Origin: Odontesthes bonariensis
Lineage: Eukaryota > Chordata > Actinopteri > Atheriniformes > Atherinopsidae
Assembly (NCBI RefSeq): GCF_027942865.1
Contig: NC_134507.1
Location: forward strand, 33,400,447-33,464,446
Direction: 5' to 3'
Length of the DNA: 64,000 bases
Part shown: in pieces, positions 12,470-39,244 of the stretch
Position numbering within the stretch: the first letter of the stretch is position 1
How the letters are laid out: every line of letters begins with the position of its first letter
The notes under the pieces: generated by a model
Told to the model about the DNA's origin: nothing
The model's input: the letters and a program-made list of their open reading frames with translations, nothing else
Databases searched by the model: none
Position numbers and translations under genes: made by a program

Positions 12470-13003
12470 GCGTGCCTTCGGGGGGAAAGTCTGAAGAAAG
12501 GGGTTGGGACTTTTGACCTGTGTATTTTCAAAATGCAGCTTCACTGGACTCAAAATCCAGGATCTCCTACCCTACCTTTAATACAGGCTCGGTCCTGAAT
12601 ATGACATCATTGCATCTTCCCATGTTGGGATCTTCATCCTACACGAGACTTAAAGGAGACATATTTTACCTCTTTAAACAAGTTAGAATTGGTCTATTGG
12701 CTATACAAAACATGTTCATGAAGTTCTTTGCACAAAATCACTCTCACATAAAGAGATTTCACCAGTTCTATTCTTTCCATTTTCAGTCTCTTCCAAATTG
12801 AGCCGTTTAAAGGGCTCTGTCACTTTTATGCAAATAAGCTGTTGCTGGCCACGCCCCGCCCCGCTCATGAGTAGCCTCTGGCTGCGTGTACTGTTTACCC
12901 TTTTGTTTTGAGGGTCCAAATGGTACATATATGTACTCAAGTGGTAAAAGGTACATATATGTACCCTTTTTTCTACATGCTGGGGTATAATAGACAGTCT
13001 TTG

Positions 13004-13405
13004 TTAAAGCTATGGTAGGTAATCCTAGAGAGCTAGCAAGAGAGCTAGCAAGATTCGAAAGTGTCCACTCCTCTAAGCTCCACCCCCCCCTCCCCATTCC
13101 GTCAGTGCTTCATCCAAAGCCGGTGGAACCGCATGCGCACATGGAGCAGGGAGCCGGCAGAGGGGGGCGTAGGCAGAAAGCAGAGGCATCTGATTGGTTT
13201 TTTGTAGGCGACCAATCCGAGATCAGCGTCCCGCTGATCTTGGATTGGTCAGCTTTTTCTCAGTCCTGCAGCTGCCACAGAGGTCTGATTATTTTCGTCC
13301 CTTTTTCTAAATACATCTTGTGTAGATTTCTCTCAGGATAGACGGACCATTTCACCCAGTATTACAAAATGTGTTTCTGAACAGGATTACCTACCATGCC
13401 TTTAA
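13004..13405. mobile_element. TTAA MITE, 394 bp (13008-13401)
   Basis: TTAA on both sides; inverted termini AGCTATGGTAGGTAATCCT and AGGCATGGTAGGTAATCCT. An internal palindrome around 'gagatcagcgtcccgctgatct' can form a hairpin. No coding frame of note. Confidence 0.85.
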
Positions 13406-13661
13406 GCTACTTCAGTATAAGGGTACAAAACTATCCTTCAGAGGGTACTGCCTCAGTGACAAGCCATCGTGCCCCTAAAGGTACAATTCTGTACTTTATT
13501 TTCTGAGAGCGTATTTTTAAACTTTTCTTTTTATTCTTAGATTGTTAATAAAAATTTGTATTGCTTTATTATGTCTTGCTACTGGATGCTTGAATTTCCT
13601 TTGGGATCAATAAAGTATCTATTCCCTATGAATTAAGGGTTCATTTGTTTTCAATGCAGAG
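13406..13661 (+). other. Older repeat flanks, including a LINE-type 3' tail at about 13540-13620
   Basis: Contains 'aagggtacaaaactatcc' and 'aaaggtacaattctgtac' (the partner of 'ggtacatatatgtacc' left of the nested MITE) and then 'gaatttcctttgggatcaat' plus 'aaagtatctatt', the usual 3' end of a fish non-LTR retrotransposon. Confidence 0.55.
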
Positions 13662-14906
13662 CTTCTGCACAGGGCCGTAACCAGGATTTTTCAAATACCG
13701 AGGTCAAATATTGCGATAAATCTTATTTGACAAAAAAAAAAAAAAAAACATCCTAATATGGTGACTTTTTAAAATACAGTTTGGAAATGTGAATAAACCG
13801 AGGTAAATCACAAGCCCATCAAGGAGGTGAATATGTAGGTGAACAAGTTTATTATAACAATGTGATCACAAAAGTAGAGTATTTGAGTGAGTGAGTGAGT
13901 GAGTGAGTTAGTGAGAATGAATGTGAGTGAGTGAGTGAGTGAGACTCAGTTCTTCCCCTTTCTTCCTCTACTGACTCTCTCTCTTCAACTCCCTCATTCT
14001 CATCCTCTCCTGTGTCATCTGTTTTATAATATCAGCATCACCATCACCATTAATATTATTGTTATTATTAATATTACATTATTATATTATTATTATATTA
14101 TTATTATTACTATTGTCACCATCATCACCATGCATGTGCATGACCCACTAAAAGGTCAAATGAATGAGTTGGGCTATTGGTCTAACCGATGTGCAAAATT
14201 TTAGACACCATTTACAATAAAATCCAAATGGTTCATTAGGAAAAATGCAATCATTTTACCTAAGTAACTGGTTGAATCCACCCACTAAATTAACATCGTA
14301 GAATGTGCCAAACAGACCACAAGATGTTGGCTGTATTTTAGATGTATAGTCTCAATTCAATCCATTCACTCAACACAGAGAAGACAGAGGTATCATGCTG
14401 GGCCTGACAACTAGCTAAATGCTGGTAAAACTTGGCTTCATAATGCACCATGAGCAGCACAACTAACCTCAAGATTGTGTCATATGAGAGTACACGGGGT
14501 ATTTCATTCTGTTATTTTGCCCCGTGTGCATCATCAATTGTTTTAAGTAAAATGAAAAATATAAGTTTCTGACCCAGTTTCTATTAGTCTGCTTTATTTA
14601 CATGTAGGAAGCCATATAGCACTGAACAAAACTGTAGCTAGTGAGGCTGAATGACCACTAGCCACAGTTGGCACAAAATAAAAAAAATATAACGTGATGA
14701 TAAAGGGATTATGTGGACTTTATTTTCAGAAAAACAAATGAGAATGCATGCTGATCTTTCCACCAATCAAAGTCAAAACGATTTTCATCATATATTAATT
14801 TGCCATTTCTCTGAATAAAAAATAAAAAAAATAAAAAAAACACGGGGGAAAATACCGAGGTCATGACCTGTGTGTCCTCAATGCTGGGTACGGCACTGCT
14901 TCTGCA
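13662..14906. mobile_element. Non-autonomous hAT element, 1229 bp (13670-14898)
   Basis: Termini CAGGGCCGTAACCAGG and the reverse complement CAGTGCCGTACCCAGC; 8-bp target duplication CTTCTGCA at 13662-13669 and 14899-14906. It contains (GAGT)n near 13885-13940, an ATT-rich tract near 14050-14110 and A-rich runs. 'aataccgaggtca' occurs near both ends as subterminal inverted copies. No transposase seen. Confidence 0.88.
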
Positions 14907-14924
14907 GTCTCCAGCCTGACTCAC

Positions 14925-15132
14925 CTGTGGTGCGTTTCTGGAGACCCAGGTGTCCAGCAGCAGCTCCAGTCTCTGCCGGTGATACCTCTCAACTTATTTC
15001 AGGCGGCTGGGCCGGCAGAGGAGAGCGATGAGTGGCCCAGCGCGGAGGAGCGCTCCCCCTCGGCCTGTGGAGCAGCTCACACAGGTTGACCTGTTCGTGG
15101 CTGTGAAAACCACCGGGAGGTATCACCGGCAG
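14925..15132 (+). pseudogene. Captured fringe-like exon, rearranged (copy 1)
   Basis: 14987-15132 (+) reads STYFRRLGRQRRAMSGPARR, ..., VEQLTQVDLFVAVKTTGRYH, RQ in one open frame. 14925-14986 (-) carries the continuation RYHRQRLELLLDTWVSRNAP, Q and a GTGAGT donor in opposite orientation. The pattern AVKTT-x-x-x-H-x-x-RLELLLDTWVSR is characteristic of Fringe O-fucose beta-1,3-N-acetylglucosaminyltransferases that modify Notch. Only the piece upstream of and including this motif is present, with no catalytic DDD region, so this is a gene fragment carried by a transposon. The two halves share 'aggtatcaccggcag' at the break. Confidence 0.8.
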
Positions 15133-15639
15133 ATCACATCAGGAAAGTCGATGTGCAGGCTCAACATCAGCCTCTCAAGCCAACTCTCTGGTAAAATAGG
15201 GGAATCTCTTCACTCTACAGCCTGCAGGGGGCGCTGACCTACAATAAAATGACTTCACGGGAAGATTTTTGGAACAAATTCTTTAGAAACTGAAGGTGAC
15301 AAATCTACGATGATCTTCACAATCACACAGTCTTAAAGTGGAGCTTCTTCTTATGTTTCTATGCAGCTGAGCACTCACATCATGATGACTGACGTGTGGA
15401 GAAATCCTGCTCTTCACCACATTTTATTTCACATCCTATAAGGTTTAAAGTTCACATTGTTCAGCTTTGATGCTGCTTCCCGTCATCAAAACCTGGGCAT
15501 CTGGTGTGAAATTTAATGCAGTAAACACACGCGAGTCCATTCTTCCAGATATACCCAAAACACTCGTGGTATAAAGATATAGACTTCAGACACCCACATC
15601 ATGCTCTAAAAGCACAGGTGGGAAAAACAAAAAGTTATT

Positions 15640-16160
15640 TTAACACATTGAATACCGGCGGTGTTTACGGAATTATGTCGTAGAATCACAGCGTTCTAAA
15701 CCATTTTTTGACGTTTTTTGTACAGTCACAGCATATTATGTGATAGGGCCACTGAAACATGTTATGGCTCGTTTGAAAGCTGAGACTTTAAACTCTTTGT
15801 GGGTCAAAACTGCGTGTCTCTAGGTGCCGCCATTAGCGAGCTATCCTTAGCTAAACCAAGACGGGTATCCACCAAAGTCAACAACAAACAGATATCGGGG
15901 CTTTTGTGAAACATGCGCTCTTTCAGCCTGTCGCACTTTAGATACTTACATATCCGGGTCAGAGGATTTGCGTCGTGTCCTTGTGTCAAAGCATTTTACA
16001 TGTTCATAAAACCACGAAGTAGGTGGAGGGATTCCAAGAATGTATAGATTCAGAATCCATAAAAAAAAAAAAAAACGTAAAAACGTATTTTTACCATTTG
16101 GGAGCCAACGCATGGGCAGTAAAAACGTAGTTTTATGTGACTTGGGAGTCAATGTGTTAA
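15640..16160. mobile_element. TTAA element with CACATTGA termini, 513 bp (15644-16156)
   Basis: TTAA at 15640-15643 and 16157-16160; inverted termini CACATTGAATACC and CACATTGACTCCC. It holds an A15-type run near 16060 and paired 'aaaaacgtatttttac' / 'gtaaaaacgtagtttt' motifs. piggyBac-like by target and termini (inference). Confidence 0.8.
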
Positions 16161-16179
16161 CATAATATGTCCCCTTTAA

Positions 16180-17739
16180 GACTTTCTCTGAGCATCTCAG
16201 GGATTTGCAGGGCTTTTGACTTTATAGAGCATTTTTCAAGCAAAATGTAAAACAATGTTTGATATAGCAATTAAAAAGGACAAACATGGAATGAAACAAA
16301 ATACAAGGATTGTAAAATGACCACACTAATAAAAGCATTTGCAGAAAACAGTAAAATATTAACTCAGCAATAAAAACAAACCGTGTACAAGACATGAAAA
16401 GAGCACATTAAAACAAGGCTAACAGGCCAATTGAGGAATCTATGGAGGATTAAAATTTTAAAGAGTTTCTATATTTTCATAGACAAACCAGTCTTCAAAT
16501 CAACTTTATTTTTCTTAAATGGCATCAGCAACACTTCCTCTCGCTTAGAGTTGCTCCAACATCTTTCCTGGACCACTTATGAGCAAAAACTGCTGGATAG
16601 AAATTTGAAAGCTGGATGAGGAGCTGGGTACTGGGAGAGCACCATTAGTTCTACCAATACTTTGCTCAGTGAGTTAGAGCAGAATAGCAAAATTTCACGT
16701 TTACTCAGTAAACCATGTACACTTCCAACTGTACAAGGACTGGATAAAGCTTACCCAGGATACCTACTAGGAAATCTGACTTCCCATCTAGAAGTTGTAA
16801 ATTCAGAGGATGCAACATCAATAGGCATGTTCTGGCACAACTGCAGAACCTGCCATTAGAGTGGAAAGGCAACAAGTTGCGTATTAAAGCACAATAGAAG
16901 AGTGGTACAGGGTAGGGTTGTCAAAGAATATTCCAAATTTTAATAGGTTTTACAGACAAAGGTGAAAATTAATATTCAAATGTGGAAAAACGTCTGTGCA
17001 GCCGCTGCCTGCCTTGAGTCGGCACACTGCATGACTGGGTCAGGGACAGGTCACAGGAGTCACTGAAAGTTGACATATGTAAAAAAAGCTACGGTTAGCT
17101 TATCATTTGACCACCATTAACATGAGGTTACATCTTGAAAATGTGCACCCAAATGAACATGGCATAATATTAAACTCAAATATGTTTAAACTGTCATTAG
17201 CCACTGGCTTGCGATTACTTTAGCATTCCATCTGCAGGGAATGGGGGAAAACCCAGACAAGGTCATCACATGATACTGCTAAAGACAGCACTGGCTGTGG
17301 TTTAATTGCAGAATAATATTTAAGGAGTAACCGGCCAGGTATTTCATGCACAATGTTTGTTTAGCAAGCCTTCAGGTTGGCTACCGTGCACTCAGCAATC
17401 TGTGCCCAGAGTTACGTGGTGGCACAAAGTTGTACCAATTTCAAGAGTGCACTGCATAGAAGGGGTTGTGTCTGGCTGCCATGTACAGGTGTAGAGAAAT
17501 GGCTGTAAAGGATGCTGTAGCTGATCACTATAGTCAATTGAGCAAAGGGTGCAACTATTTAACACCTTCATAGCAATTCCTCTCAAGATGCAGAGCTTTG
17601 AGAAGCCATGTTTGAAACCAAAAGCAGAATGTCCCAGTCAAATATGACAGGTGATGCCTGCCATTTGCCTTGAACCCAGATGGTGTACACAGGACATTGT
17701 TTCCCTTAATCATTCTGAAGCTAGATCATTTGACAAGAC
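16180..17739. other. No gene seen; 3' flank of gene C
   Basis: AT-rich sequence without convincing coding frames, RNA genes or clear element ends. Short open frames (for example 16431-16619) lack supporting signals. Confidence 0.5.
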
Positions 17740-33166: not shown

Positions 33167-33630
33167 ACTGGACGCAGGAGCGGCCACGGAAGAGTGGTGC
33201 TCCTCTATTTTGAACTGTGCGAGCAGGTTTGGGGTGGCAAATGCAATAAGGCCAGAATCATTTGCACAAACGTAAAAATTAGGAGAACTTTAACATCATC
33301 CATGATAATCCTGATCAGTAGCCAAACAAACTGCAAACATAAGGCGCTCGCATGACGTTAAGCATTTTCTGGCACATAATGTGACGTTTAAGAACCTAAA
33401 ACGCCGTTTCTCCCAGTTGACACATAACCAGCGTTATCAGAAATCTCCACTTTGGCCGGAGGTTTTAGAAATAATCATTTTCTGTGATAAAAACGGGGTT
33501 TTGGTGTAAATGAGAGGCCAAACCGCAGGAAAATATCTGCGTCTTCCTATCGTGTAAACGGGGCCTCAGGCCTTAGGTCATGCGTAGATTTCAAAGCAAA
33601 CCAGAAATACAAGGCCAAAATACCAGAAAA

Positions 33631-33702
33631 GGGCTCATCCGGCATTTGAACCCGGGACCTCTAGCGCTCTAAGCGAGAATCATACCCCTAGTCCAAAGAG
33701 CC
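33631..33702 (-). pseudogene. tRNA-Pro-like pseudogene (anticodon position AGA)
   Basis: On the - strand GGCTCTTTGGACTAGGGGTA ... TTCAAATGCCGGATGAGCC matches tRNA-Pro, but the loop reads TTAGAGC in place of TTAGGGT, the anticodon stem has a mismatch and acceptor pair 6-67 is T-T. It shares its 3' flank ('aaggcca...agaaaagggctc') with the unit at 34946, so the units are tandem copies. Confidence 0.8.
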
Positions 33703-34074
33703 AAGGTTTGCAACTTTAGACGTCATACAAGGGCCCGGGGCCACAGATAGTAAAACGATACCCTCGGAAGGTGCGTTCGATCATCGAATAGAAACATCCT
33801 ACAACTTTCAGTTCAGCTCACTCAATGTCAGTGTTTCTTCCTCTTTTTTTTTATTTCAAATTTCTCTTTTTCTAACGTGGAGATTAGTTGCCAAAAGTAT
33901 GTGTAAATGAATCTGTAACACTACAAATCCCTGCTGTGAGTGTAAACTTGTGGAGGGTCAACGTAAACTCCAAGTAAAAGCTGGGATAACGGTTTGTCTA
34001 GCTAAAAAGTGCATTGTAAAAAAAAAGATGAGTTGTCAGTGGCTCGAATGTTAGGGCATGTTCAGTCTATGTCC

Positions 34075-34515
34075 TCAATAATTTCACTCATGTTGAGTGA
34101 AGGGAGAGCCAACTGCTACAGCTCCAAACAATATAGTAAGACAGGACATTTTTGCAATTTTTATCAGCACTCTTAATTAACAATTTGGGGCAGCAAAGAG
34201 AGACACATTTGAGATCAAGGAAGGTACCCAAAGTTAACCATCAAGCTTTCCGTATAGGTTTCTTAAAGTAGGAGTGCTCGTCTGGGATTCGAACCCGGAA
34301 CCTCTCGCACCCAAAGCGAGAATCATACCTCTAGACCAACGAAAAGGTGGTCTTTTAGCGTTTCGTGAGAGCATGCGAACAGCTGACGTAGCCATGGAAT
34401 CCTGGGAATTTGTGATTGCTTTCTTTCTTCTTTAACTTTTCTAGAGCAATGAGCCTATATTGTTTGGAGTTGGCTCTCCCTTCCCTCAGCATGAGTGAAG
34501 TTATTAGGCACATAC
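34075..34515. repeat. Inverted repeat flanking the second tRNA-Pro
   Basis: 'gaagggagagccaactg' with 'ctccaaacaatatag' at 34098-34137 is inverted at 34452-34490 ('ctatattgtttggagttggc', 'tctcccttccctcag'). Arms are about 60 bp with small indels around the tRNA-Pro copy. Confidence 0.7.
34274..34345 (-). tRNA. tRNA-Pro(TGG)-like, degenerate acceptor stem
   Basis: TCGTTGGTCTAGAGGTATGA then TTCTCGCTTTGGGTGCGAGA with anticodon TGG and an intact T-arm (GTTCGAATC). The 5' acceptor strand reads TTTTCGT against ACGAGCA, leaving mismatches at the end. No T-run just downstream. Possibly inactive. Confidence 0.65.
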
Positions 34516-34945
34516 ACTGAACAGCCCACAAAAACTCCGGAGACCAATGAGTCAATACTCACCACCAGGTTCCACCAATTCACATCACATTTTATGAAGA
34601 AGCCCAACTTTAAGACAGAACAGGCCTATATCTCCATTTCTCTACCATTGACTTGAAGCGTTTCAATCTGGATTTATAGAACAAATACCAAAAATGCTTT
34701 AGATAATACTGCAGAGGGTGTGCTTACATGATACAGGTATTTATGCGTGGATCTGTCTTTCAAATTCCAGATAAGAAATTCATTTAAGAAGGACTCCAAG
34801 CAACTTCAGAATGAGTGATGGAGGTTTGAGCTGTATTTCCTTATTTGTGGCTTTGATTCCAAATGCATTCAATGTTATAGTCATTGATTCAATCATTCTC
34901 TGATTTCACAGCAAAGCAGAGACACAAGGCCAGCAGACCAGGGAA

Positions 34946-35017
34946 GGGCTCGTCCAGGATTTGAACCTGAGACCTCTCACACCCTAAGCGAGAATCATAC
35001 CCCTAGACCAACGAGCC
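34946..35017 (-). tRNA. tRNA-Pro(AGG)
   Basis: 72 nt, GGCTCGTTGGTCTAGGGGTA ... ACGAGCCC. Acceptor, D and anticodon (CTCGC TTAGGGT GTGAG, one G-T pair) stems are formed; the T stem TCAGG/CCTGG is changed from the usual but still paired. No T4 run immediately 3', so transcription termination is uncertain. Confidence 0.85.
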
Positions 35018-35029
35018 AAAAAGAAGCAA

Positions 35030-35280
35030 AGTGGTTTTTGTGATTTATTTCCGAAATTCACGTGATCGCTGCATAAAACAGAGCTGGATGTCATTCAAAT
35101 AATCTGTAAATGTGAAAACATTGGATTTAGTCCCAGTTCAATCTTCTGTACCTCAAGAATAGTTTAAGCCATGAGATGAAGTGCCTCCAAGTACAGACTG
35201 TTTTGGAAGTCCAGCACTCCTGAAGCACTGCAGTAAACAGTTATGGCACCATGTTGACGTAAATAATAACATCTTAAGGC
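35030..35280. repeat. tRNA-Thr unit flank, copy 1 of a direct duplication (second copy 36105-36354)
   Basis: 'atttccgaaattcacgtgat' through 'gtaaataataacatcttaag' recurs at 36120-36354 with a few percent change. The second copy ends exactly at the first bases of where a tRNA-Thr should start, replaced there by the fringe-bearing element. Confidence 0.85.
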
Positions 35281-35350
35281 ACTGCTGGGATTTGAACCCA
35301 GGATCTCCTGTTTACTAGACAGGCACTTTGACCAATTAAGCCACAGCACC
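35277..35350 (-). tRNA. tRNA-Thr(AGT)
   Basis: 74 nt; GGTGCTGTGGCTTAATTGGT ... CCTGTCTAGTAAACAGG anticodon arm (AGT), T-arm GGGTTCAAATCCC, acceptor GGTGCTG/CAGTGCC paired with two wobbles. No T4 terminator within the next 15 nt. Confidence 0.85.
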
Positions 35351-35972
35351 ACATGGTTTGGACAACTGATGAAAGAATAAAGAACAGGAACTGGATCCAC
35401 CTCAGGAAGTGGTTTTTGTGATTCTGTACCTCAAGAAAAGTTAAAGCCATGAGTAGAAGTGCCTCCAATTGGTTCAAAACTTCATCGTATCTTGCAGATA
35501 TTGTTGGGTTTTCAACTCAGACCCTGGTGTTCATGAGGAAGGCACTTTCACCAGTTACAGCCTGATCTCATGAAGCGGTGTACTTATTACACGCTAAGTC
35601 ATTTACCCTGTTTTTACAAGGCTTTTTTATGCTTTTACTTATTATTTTACACTTCATATTTTGAGGAAATGACGTCCTACCCTCAGCTTTTACGCTAACT
35701 CTGACTATTTCACAGTTTGTATGTTCATTCTGATGTTATGTAGTGTGACAGGAGGAGAACCTCCACCGTACTGTACCCTAACCATTTGACTTGTTATGTG
35801 AACGGAGTAAAATTACACTCCGAAAGCATAAAATAGGCATAAATGACACTTTAAAAGCTGTGGGCTATTTATATGCACTTTTATTAAGTGGACCAGTGAG
35901 ATGCATTTTGTAGTAGAACCCTGATAATAAGCTGTTTTATATGCTAAGTCATAGTTAGCTCTGAAGGACCAC

Positions 35973-36047
35973 AGGCACTGCTGTGATTTGAGCCCAGGAT
36001 CTCAAGTTTACAAGACAGGCAACTAAGACCAACTAAGCCACAGCACC
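35973..36047 (-). pseudogene. tRNA-Thr pseudogene (loop TTGTAAA)
   Basis: Related to the AGT gene at 35277, but the anticodon stem is broken (CCTGT against ACTTG), the T-loop is CTCAAAT and its stem is mismatched. The anticodon position reads TGT. Confidence 0.8.
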
Positions 36048-36354
36048 ACATGGTTCATAACACTAATGAAGGAATAAAGAGCAGGAACTGGATCCACCTC
36101 AGGAAGTGTTTTTTGTGATTTATTTCCGAAATTCATGTGATCTCTGCATAAAACAGGGCATGATATTATTCAAATTATCTCTATATGTGAAAACATTGGA
36201 TTAAGTCTCAGTTTAATCTTCTGTACCTCAAGAATATTTAAAGCCATGAGATGAAGTGCCTCCAAGTACAGACTGTTTTGGAAGTCCAGCACTCCTGAAG
36301 CTCTGCTGTAAACAGTTATGGCACCATGTTGACGTAAATAATAACATCTTAAGG

Positions 36355-36993
36355 CGACAGCGCGAGGTCCCGCTGTTGAGAAAACACTTCTTTTCTGTCC
36401 ATGAGCGAAGTGGTGAACCCATCCACGCAGTGAACATGTGGAAGCCTGCCGGGGGACCGAGGCTCGCCTTCAGCTCAGCGGGACCTCGCGCTGCTGTCGC
36501 CGCGGTCACCTGTCGGCTGGTGGCCGGGATGCCCTGCTCACTGGCGGACACCAGAAGGAGCTGCCGGCTGCAGGGGGCGCGGATGTTTTCTCAACTTATT
36601 TCAGGCGGCTGGCCCGGGAGAGGAGAGCGGTGAGCAGCTCACACAGGCTGACCTGTTCTTGGCTGTGAAAACCACCGGGAGGTATCACCGGCAGAGACTG
36701 GAGCTGCTGCTGGACACCTGGGTCTCCAGAAACGCACCACAGGTGAGTCAGGCTGGAGACTGCAGAAGCTCTGCACTGAAAACAAATGAACCCTTAATTC
36801 ACAGCTTATTTGCATAAAAGTGACAGAGCCCTTTAAACGGCTCAATTTGGGAGAGACTGAAACTGCCAAGAATAGAGCTGGTGAAATCTCTTTATGTGAG
36901 AGTGATTTTGTGCAAAGAACTTCATGAACATGTTTTGTATAGCCCACAGACCAATTCTAACTTGTTTAAAGAGGTAAAATATGTCCCCTTTAA
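36355..36993. mobile_element. TTAA-type element fragment with fringe exon (copy 2)
   Basis: The right end ATATGTCCCCT + TTAA (36990-36993) matches the left end of the 12654 element in inverse orientation, and the 200 bp before it are homologous. The left side starts abruptly after the tRNA-Thr unit with 'gacagcgcgaggtcccgctg', which has an inverted copy at about 36476-36498. The other terminus is missing. Confidence 0.7.
36580..36742 (+). pseudogene. Captured fringe-like exon (copy 2), collinear but with internal deletion
   Basis: DVFSTYFRRLARERRAVSS is followed, after a frame change, by TQADLFLAVKTTGRYHRQRL and ELLLDTWVSRNAPQ and then GTGAGTC at 36743, a real-looking splice donor. Relative to copy 1 it lacks about 40 bp between RERRA and LTQ, which breaks the frame. 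Closest by eye to Fringe glycosyltransferases (manic-type RLELLLDTWVSR). No further exons follow. Confidence 0.8.
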
Positions 36994-37470
36994 CAAAGCA
37001 AACTTTGAATATTTGGCACTGAAAATGCTCCTATCTGTGTATTTAAACAGCGTGTTTCAACGTGATAAAGATGATTCCCATAAGAAGAGAACTGCTTTCC
37101 TACATGACTGAGAACAGGCTAATGTGTCTAACATCTGAAATAAAACTGTAGAAAAAGGAGACACCTGATAGAGGACATTTAGAGGCATTCCTTTTTAATG
37201 TTTGGTGAGCTGATCTGTCAGTGTTAAAGAAGCAGAAATGAGAAACTCCTCTGAAGCTGATCAGAAATTGAGGTTTTACGGAGCACCAAAGAAAAATGTT
37301 TCATCGATATCAAATGTCAAACTTGATCAGTCAGTCATATTTTGTCAAAATGTTTCATCACTGATCAGCCTTTAACATTTAAAAGATGCTTTATTTCGTT
37401 CCTCGACAGCAAATTAGCTCGCTGATGACGTCAGGATCAAAAAGCCCAAAACCTGCTTGAATGAGAGCAC
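36994..37470. other. No gene seen
   Basis: AT-rich sequence between the fringe element and the 7SL RNA; 'tgatcagtcagtcat' and 'cactgatcagcc' are minor palindromic motifs only. Confidence 0.5.
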
Positions 37471-37475
37471 CTGTC

Positions 37476-37770
37476 GCCGGGAGCGGGGGCGCGCCTGTAA
37501 TCCAAGCTACCAGGAGGCTGAGGCTGGTGGATCGCTTGAACTCAGGAGTTCTGAGCTGCAGAGGACTATGTCCATCGGGTGTCCGCACTAAGTTGGGTAT
37601 GGATATGGTGCGCCTGGGGTAGCCCGGGAACACCAGGTTGTCTAAGGAGGGGGGCAACGGCCCAGGTGGGAAACGGAACAGGGCAAAGCCCCCGTGCTGC
37701 TCAGTAGTGGGATCGCACCTGTGAATAGATGCTGTAGTGCAGCCTGAGTAATACAGCAGGACTCAGTCTT
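37476..37770 (+). ncRNA. RN7SL: 7SL RNA (signal recognition particle RNA)
   Basis: Full-length match to vertebrate 7SL by eye: 5' GCCGGGAGCGGGGGCGCGCC, CTGTAATCCAAGCTACC, GAGGCTGAGGCTGGTGGATC, S-domain CGGGTGTCCGCACTAAGTT, CACCAGGTTGTCTAAGGAGG, GGCCCAGGTGGGAAACGGAA, CAGTAGTGGGATCGCACCTG, GTGAATAGATGCTGTAGTGC and AGCCTGAGTAA. It ends at a T5 run (37769-37773), a Pol III terminator. The SRP54-binding loop reads AACAGGGCAAAG where mammals have AGCAGGTCAAA. It forms the RNA scaffold of the particle that docks secretory ribosomes to the ER. Gene or recent retrocopy cannot be told for certain; no A-tail is seen. Confidence 0.92.
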
Positions 37771-37930
37771 TTTACACTCTTTCTGCTCTTCCACACACAC
37801 AACACACTGCACGCGCGCTACAACGACACGCTTTGACACCTTTTAGCAGCTTCCTCGCTGCTTCTCTGGCTTCTCTTTCCCTTACAAAGCACAGCTGTTT
37901 CTTCCTCCTGCAGTATGGGATCAAATAAGG

Positions 37931-38004
37931 GTCAGGAAGATTTTGTACTTGTACAATGATGTGTGCCTCCCCTGGAGGCGTGGGTTCAAATCCCACTTCT
38001 GACA
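37931..38004 (+). pseudogene. tRNA-Leu relic with internal deletion
   Basis: 5' GTCAGGA and 3' TTCTGACA form an acceptor stem; 'ggaggcgtgggttcaaatcc' is the variable and T arm of the tRNA-Leu(CAA) type. The D and anticodon arms are missing or scrambled (74 nt in place of about 85 plus an intron). Confidence 0.75.
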
Positions 38005-38492
38005 TTGCAGACTTCTCCTGGAGAACTATTTTCACTGGCAACCTAAGTTTACTCCTTGCTTAGCAATACCATGCCGTGTTGCTATTTTGGCACTGCATCA
38101 TCTAGTTTAAAGATTATTACGGCCGCTTTACCTCCAAAGAGTTCTTGCTTCCAAATGCTGTGCCGACTATTTGTTTGCCTCAGGAGCCCTGTAAAACAAC
38201 AGCCAAGGGACTTGTTGCATGAGAATCTTCTGACCACAGCTCAACTAGCTGTGTTGTCACAACCTTCTACAGTGCTTTGGGCAGGACAGAATCATTAGCA
38301 AAAGGAACATTATTGATTATAAGGTCTTGGTTTGCACTTAACACCACAGTGAACGGGAAAGGGCTTTTGACCGAAGCAACCTGGCCTCATGTTAGGCCAT
38401 TTGAAGGGGGCTATTGACATTTAGGCCGAAGATGGGTGAGAGTATCAAAACAATCATCACTTGGTGGCAGGCAGCTGATAAAAGACAGAGCT

Positions 38493-38564
38493 CTCCCCGT
38501 CAGGGAATCGATCCCCGATCTTCCGCGTGACAGGCAGAGTTACTGTGCATTATACTAACGAGGA
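38493..38564 (-). tRNA. tRNA-Asp(GTC)-like
   Basis: TCCTCGTTAGTATAATGCAC ... CCTGTCACGCGG (anticodon GTC) ... ACGGGGAG, 72 nt, with paired acceptor and anticodon stems. The T-loop is ATCGATT in place of TTCGATT, altering the B box, and one T-stem pair is weak. A TTTT terminator lies about 11 nt downstream ('gctctgtcttttatc'). Either a divergent gene or an early pseudogene. Confidence 0.75.
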
Positions 38565-39244
38565 ACTTCTGTGTGGCAGATACAGTCGTCAGATGAAAAG
38601 ACAACTATCGCCAAGGAGTGAAATAAGATTTTCGTGTCCCGTTTCAAGGTCTTGCTTGTTAGTATAAATTCAGATAAAGGAGAATTCCGCGTTGTGAACT
38701 GTATTTAATTCTGTTTTCTCTCCACAGCTTGAGAAACATGAAATAATAATTAAACAATTCAACACAACTTGAACTCAAACTTGTCATTATTGTACGGTTC
38801 ATGCAAAGTGTTAGAAATGTGTTTTTTACATTTATATTCACAGTGGGGTGCCATGACCTAAACGTGTGGAAAGTTATAAATCATCTCTGTATATTTAGCC
38901 TTCTTACACTTGCTCTGACTTAAACTGCTACTGTGTCAATGCTAAATTATGAAAAGAAGTTCTAACTCAAAGGTCACAACAATAAGGATCAAAGGAAATA
39001 TGGGTCCCTGTATATAGGTCCCTCACTGTGTCAGGAGAAACTGAGTCCTTTCAGGCACTACAACCTGCAGGGAATCAAGGAGGAAAGACTTGAGACTGAA
39101 AAGTTGTCCACAAGACAAAATGTATAAAATATGAAGTATACTATTAATTTAACAGATGGCTCTGTCAGAAGTCAGCCATGGTGCCTGAGAAGTTTAAGCA
39201 ATGAACCTGTATTTAATTTGGCCAAAGGTCATTTCTATCCGTGC
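38565..39244. other. No gene seen
   Basis: AT-rich; the only open frames are short and unsupported. Confidence 0.5.

Follow-up and report, generated by a model that had tools for sequence, protein, structure and literature searches.

A lunatic-fringe-type exon, probably captured once, amplified by a TTAA transposon in the genome of Odontesthes bonariensis

Our analysis indicates that a piece of a fringe gene, a gene that tunes Notch signalling, was captured once by a transposon in this genome and was then amplified. Two of the copies lie in the window, by which we mean the whole stretch of 64,000 nucleotides analysed here (C2:33400447-33464446, in a genome of 945 Mb and 187 contigs). Very probably, the element is a non-autonomous Pack-TIR of T2/Kolobok type that captured a piece of a lunatic-fringe-type gene around exon 1, came to carry an inverted copy of it, spread, and was multiplied further on C2 by segmental duplication. 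Among captures of gene fragments in animals it is unusually large. The capture can be traced step by step because the parent gene, exon-free carriers, empty sites and shared junctions all survive in one genome.

The window copies and their parent gene

The initial annotation had proposed that a TTAA-type element captured a fringe exon together with its splice donor. This holds in the window: the exon ends at a donor, CAG|GTGAGT, at 14925 on the minus strand and at 36742 on the plus strand, and its parent is found in the genome. The peptide AVKTTGRYHRQRLELLLDTWVSRNAPQ matches manic fringe (PDB 2j0a) with E=2.7e-6, the sole match up to E=1. Human LFNG and MFNG, compared with the window by tblastn, match copy 2 at E ~6e-9 and copy 1 as two opposed pieces; in the same comparison the later fringe exons gave no convincing match in the window, and exon 1 alone was found.

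The segment 14925-15132, first taken as a single exon, is indeed fringe exon 1 but consists of a left arm fused to a right arm (Table 1), because the middle of the palindrome has been lost from copy 1. The open frame YFRRLGRQRRAMSG...KTTGRYHRQ noted there is present and corresponds to the right arm. The second copy, originally placed at 36580-36742, is present as well and its exon extends further, over 36436-36742. As had also been claimed, both copies share flanking element sequence: 12650-12842 corresponds to 36993-36801 at 96%, and 14898-14988 to 36769-36679 at 100% over 91 bp.

In comparison with L043 and L040, copy 1 is missing the palindrome centre, everything to the right of 15133 and ~870 bp of flank. 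A description of copy 1 as an inversion with a 17-bp duplicated end was rejected, since full elements show that the inverted pair is ancestral and that copy 1 lost only the centre. Position 16183 was likewise rejected as its right end, the same two loci placing the cut at 15133. The later insertion that interrupts copy 1 (ends CAGGGCCGTA/TACGGCACTG) we take to be hAT-like. A separate inverted-repeat element with TTAA ends and 22-nt arms (15635-16165) adjoins copy 1.

Copy 2 begins where a tRNA would be expected, 36200-36358 being a tRNA-Thr 3' flank without the tRNA body. The surrounding stretch, 33600-38600, holds tRNA genes and a full-length match to SRP (7SL) RNA (Metazoa SRP) at 37476-37772. 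This stretch is repeated in several C2 loci at ~94-97%, and the SRP RNA and tRNA genes were thus amplified together with copy 2.

Table 1 Features of the two window copies (window positions) and the two classes of segmentally duplicated copies on C2.
Feature	Position	Strand	Basis
Copy 1: fringe-carrying element truncated by loss of its centre and right end; left end intact; nested insertions	12650..15133	+	blastn to element L015:1498-3220; left flank common to L040, L041, L043
Copy 1, carrier left terminus: TTAA + AGGAGACATATTTT, ~250 bp, common to exon-free carrier L070	12650..12899	+	
Copy 1, internal repeat with (ATCT)n-type tail at its end; nested TTAA inverted-repeat element at ~13003-13405	12900..13625	+	
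Copy 1, captured start of parent intron 1, antisense; resumes at 14907-14924	13626..13669	-	alignment to parent intron
Copy 1, later insertion with ends CAGGGCCGTA/TACGGCACTG and 8-bp duplication CTTCTGCA (13662-13669, 14899-14906), splitting the captured intron piece	13670..14898	.	read from sequence
Copy 1, left arm: 3' part of fringe exon 1 and donor CAG|GTGAGT	14925..14988	-	
Copy 1, right arm: fringe exon 1 STYFRRLGRQ...KTTGRYHRQ, cut at 15133	14987..15133	+	breakpoint by comparison with L040 and L043
Copy 2: left half of element, truncated in right arm	36353..36993	-	
Copy 2, right-arm remnant (exon positions 41 to ~66)	36353..36375	-	sequence read; piece aligned in sister copies L025, L026, L038, L042
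Copy 2, centre filler with inverted copy of exon positions ~150-160	36376..36391	.	
Copy 2, captured piece of parent 5' UTR	36392..36435	+	
Copy 2, fringe exon 1, ATG to donor; deletions, frameshifted	36436..36742	+	
Copy 2, captured start of parent intron 1	36743..36800	+	
Copy 2, carrier left terminus; plus strand reads ...TATGTCCCCTTTAA	36801..36993	-	
Class W1: L040, L041, L043, copy 1	C2		
Class W2: L025, L026, L038, L039, L042, L044-L048, copy 2	C2		

The Pfam Fringe model gave at least 142 matches in the genome (150 of 206 candidates scored). Four fringe genes are among them: LFNG-like on C26, RFNG-like on C28, MFNG-like by a small margin at C4:31.15 Mb, and LFNG-like at C4:34.28 Mb (summed bits: LFNG 425, RFNG 385, MFNG 362). 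Outside these genes lie 111 of the 142 matches, covering at most the first 58 model positions, which represent exon 1; three similar C7 matches are not counted in the 111. Together with 9 further matches (40 of 150 candidates scored) they merge into at least 89 clusters. The element therefore distorts gene counts, a fringe domain search returning these matches, 111 of which are taken as isolated exon-1 pieces, against four genes.

The parent is the lunatic-fringe-type gene at C4:34.28 Mb (L012): one arm matches its exon 1 at 97% identity over 202 bp and the other arm at 90% over 405 bp; the other three fringe genes reach ~75% over 67-83 bp. The comparison with fringe genes of the same genome, which the initial annotation had suggested as a check, thus has a fringe gene and not a non-fringe gene as its best match. 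Because of the 97% identity and because reversed-pattern controls gave 0 matches, the piece of fringe exon in the window is real and not a chance resemblance.

By tblastn, the parent gene matches LFNG positions 74-141 and 163-374, and a focused search found a small second exon between the two matches. Its exon 1 is 348 bp long and ends in phase 0. The captured piece runs from L012:2779 to ~3241 and comprises ~44 bp of 5' UTR, exon 1 and ~70 bp of intron 1. The intron sequence is kept in the copies, which are therefore not retroduplicates.

Element structure, carrier and spread

The element in L015:1498-3220 spans TTAAAGGAGACATATTTT to ACATGTCCCCTTTAA. Many elements hold fringe exon 1 twice, head to head, with both splice donors directed outward. 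The more complete copies have exon positions 1-360 (with intron) in the left arm and 41-351 in the right arm; the right arm of L015 is shortened, and further deletions occur in many copies. Element length is 1140-1945 bp in the 24 loci with both ends. At the centre lies a short filler in which exon positions ~150-160 recur in inverted orientation. Seen from the carrier, one arm joins the THAP coding start and the other joins a repeat with an (ATCT)n tail. At least two copies (L018, L019) have the central 5' UTR joined to the opposite arm, as though the loop had turned over.

The same termini are found without the exon in the carriers L067 and L070. L064, L065, L066, L068 and L069 were rejected as exon-free carriers, rearranged exon pieces remaining in them; among the six candidates examined, L067 alone is exon-free. 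Read inward from its right end, the carrier starts a THAP protein (PF05485, cut-off 23.9; 26.8 bits in L067 and 39.4 bits in L071), which places the exon within the coding start of the transposase. In Kolobok the THAP domain is characterised by C2CH, PWF and an AVPTIF-like box; the THAP piece of the carrier has SVPTIC at its end, a sequence close to that box. For the THAP exon of L070, scoring of 150 among 1410 candidates gave at least 16 matches at 83-100% identity, including itself, of which nine lie on C6, as well as many matches that are more distant. The Kolobok-like carriers L067, L070 and L071 cluster on C6; L071, which has further open stretches, may be a longer carrier.

Elements end in AGGAG or AGGGG beside TTAA, i.e. 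in AGGRR read from outside inwards. T2-MITE/Kolobok elements are defined, in the passages compared here, by a TTAA target site, AGGRR termini, a THAP domain and an AVPTIF-like box (PMC6004289), while the termini given for piggyBac MITEs in the part of the source used are CC[C/T]T (PMC2872659). The difference between these termini and the AGGRR ends speaks against a piggyBac carrier. As judged from its sequence, the carrier fits T2/Kolobok rather than piggyBac. For the DDE catalytic domain and the H2CH of Kolobok, four further open stretches of L071 were compared and none gave a match above its cut-off; the carrier is accordingly assigned to Kolobok from its TTAA target, its AGGRR ends and its THAP start.

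The genome-wide copy count proposed at the outset found the right junction between exon and carrier at 84 places (43 plus, 41 minus; at most 3 mismatches) and the left-arm donor at 102 places including the parent, with 0 for the reversed-pattern control in both cases. The region C2:32.5-39.2 Mb contains 3 of the 84 right junctions and, among the donor places listed, 33 of 100. At the level of individual loci (the analysis covered copy 1, 49 of the 89 clusters and a further six loci), the right junction is present in 41 of 55 exon loci, the left-arm donor with intron in 40, the centre in 24 and the join of intron and tail in 26. All four motifs are absent from the seven gene loci and the two exon-free carriers. 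Of the 14 exon loci that lack the right junction, 11 belong to the truncated W2 class.

Compared with L067, the sequence ...CTCCATGCAGCC is replaced at the right junction by ...ACAGGTGCAGCC, with TG shared; on the other side the intron end joins the (ATCT)n tail at a shared ATCTAT. These putative microhomologies measure 2 bp (TG, right) and 6 bp (ATCTAT, left). The shared junctions, the genome counts and the W2 class, which accounts for most junction-less loci, indicate one capture followed by amplification. The order first proposed, with capture before amplification, is thus borne out by an identical chimeric junction at 84 places. The possibility that copies are always embedded in a complete fringe locus was also looked at and is not the case: the copies lie outside fringe genes.

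Element ends were assessed in 50 copies (49 of the 89 clusters and copy 1), an end being accepted if the match reaches within 4 bases of it. The left end is present in 39 copies, 38 of which begin with TTAA, and the right end in 32, of which 30 finish with TTAA; both termini are found in 24 of the 50 loci and neither in three (L053, L059, L063). Of the 47 loci in which an end can be recognised, 32 have flanks that resemble no other, and this holds at E 1e-4 too. The remaining 15 fall into the two C2 classes of Table 1, which represent two insertions multiplied by segmental duplication. The window copies are deletion derivatives of these two separate insertions.

When the two flanks of L043 are joined, they match at least 18 stretches without interruption, located on C2 and C16 (1333 candidates, 40 of them scored; best 94%). 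Three of these stretches were read and each holds a single TTAA. Since the empty sites hold a single TTAA, the target was duplicated at this insertion site.

Relative to the parent, the majority base among the copies is different at 5 of 360 sites (exon 1 and 12 intron bases), and the copies depart from this majority base by a median of 2.2% (58 arms); the window-region C2 copies were left out of these divergence figures and of the arm-comparison and substitution counts. Rooted on the parent, a tree of 52 sequences approaches a star shape, which is what a burst should produce. Gene conversion between arms was not seen, the mean difference being 4.3% within 21 elements and 4.2% between elements. 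Per-copy substitutions number 147 synonymous, 231 non-synonymous and 9 stops, against 118, 259 and 10 expected, which is a mild non-synonymous deficit; unique events (79, 162 and 6) are close to the expected synonymous share of 30.5%. The copies seem to decay near-neutrally, with no clear sign of protein selection.

Proposed origin, possible effects and alternatives

We propose that one contiguous parent piece was captured, comprising the ~44 bp of 5' UTR, the 348-bp exon 1 and the ~70 bp of intron 1, and that a single replicative template-switching event copied most of the exon again in inverted orientation, a mechanism suggested by the junctions. One arm would have been joined inside the THAP coding start of the carrier transposase and the other to the (ATCT)n-tailed repeat. 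The finished element would then have moved to dozens of TTAA sites through a Kolobok-type transposase presumably supplied elsewhere, and two of its C2 insertions would later have been multiplied by segmental duplication, giving both window copies. The probable order of events is therefore capture, inverted copying, spread and segmental duplication. A single template-switching capture followed by transposition is what the shared junctions, two of them with microhomology, argue for.

Any effect on the parent, whether by hairpin RNA or by exon trapping, would be a by-product. The transposase start region, where we infer a promoter, adjoins the right arm in 40 of 53 loci, 39 of them with an ATG, and transcription from there would run through antisense exon, loop, sense exon and donor. 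It is unlikely, judging from sequence features, that such a palindrome transcript would form a hairpin and give rise to small RNAs against the parent. In one element, folding of a 686-nt stretch is predicted at -666.5 kcal/mol (z -48, 20 shuffles), but a DNA palindrome by itself yields a stable fold; 24 of 50 loci hold at least 20 of the 372 perfect parent-exon 21-mers on each strand, but much of one arm is lost in many copies, and the arms are as divergent within as between elements. That these small RNAs would damp the parental lunatic-fringe-type gene, making a selfish element accidentally a genome-wide RNAi array against a Notch modifier, is more doubtful again. The mirrored exon offers a natural experiment on whether hairpins carried by transposons act on a vertebrate developmental gene.

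The outward donors could alternatively serve as an exon trap that would give host genes a fringe signal-anchor exon. The donor GT is intact in 55 of 56 arms, which we do not take as beyond what age alone leaves, and the parent exon ends in phase 0. Seven of 27 ATG-to-donor stretches are open, two of which (L015, L021) remain in the parental frame despite lacking nine codons; the other 20, however, are not open, and substitutions are near neutral. We consider such a role improbable.

LINE-mediated retroposition of unspliced fringe RNA with 5' inversion (twin priming) agrees with the position of the inverted exon piece, which adjoins the (ATCT)n-tailed repeat, but the copies stop at transposon ends bearing TTAA, and the right junction they share falls within transposase codons; as an account of the copies it is very improbable, and it could survive only as the original capture step. 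That unprocessed pseudogenes spread solely through segmental duplication of the fringe locus is scarcely credible, for although C2 copies in or near the window share long flank stretches, 32 of the 47 end-bearing loci have unique flanks, TTAA stands at nearly all ends, empty sites exist and no fringe sequence past exon 1 was found in the window, so that segmental duplication alone is refuted as the whole story and is true of the two C2 classes.

Comparison with known gene-capturing transposons

Capture of the fringe piece by a T2/Kolobok-type Pack-TIR, which remains our preferred reading, has several known counterparts. Plant Pack-MULEs also amplify captured gene pieces, and belong to another superfamily and another kingdom. 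They are named in the survey of Tan et al. 2021 (PMC8277862), which, in the sections used here, reports 370 Pack-TIRs across 100 animal genomes, counts four of these as multicopy, describes a multicopy example with three copies and calls multicopy gene capture by cut-and-paste transposons rare in animals.

Like the animal Pack-TIRs described in these sections (PMC8277862), the fringe element is a TIR transposon that carries a host gene piece with an identifiable parent. Its internal sequence exceeds 100 bp and has an unambiguous parent at 90% or more (97% over 202 bp, 90% over 405 bp). In 24 of 50 loci it is bounded on both sides by the termini of a single TIR element. The ratio of captured to parental length falls outside the 80-120% given in the survey (PMC8277862), the exon being carried nearly twice as an inverted pair. 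The fringe element thus works like a Pack-TIR, though the length criterion of the survey would exclude it. It differs from the Pack-TIRs surveyed in those sections in its 84 junction copies, its inverted exon pair and its Kolobok-type carrier (PMC8277862); the terms Kolobok, piggyBac and palindrom- are absent from the main text of that paper.

With the T2-MITEs and Kolobok elements of Xenopus it shares the TTAA target, the AGGRR termini and a THAP domain with an AVPTIF-like box, whereas the passages compared from that description mention no captured host exon (PMC6004289). Drosophila Ssk-FB4, as presented in the parts used of PMC8277862, is likewise a multicopy gene capture with long inverted repeats; it carries nearly a whole gene, is transcribed and occupies three loci plus one tandem copy, in contrast to the fringe element with exon 1 only as a palindromic pair.

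In a literature search conducted largely at the level of bibliographic records, we recognised neither a captured fringe exon nor a fish Kolobok Pack-TIR. Gene capture by Pack-TIRs is known; the palindrome, the copy number and the Kolobok-type carrier set the fringe element apart as a new form of it.
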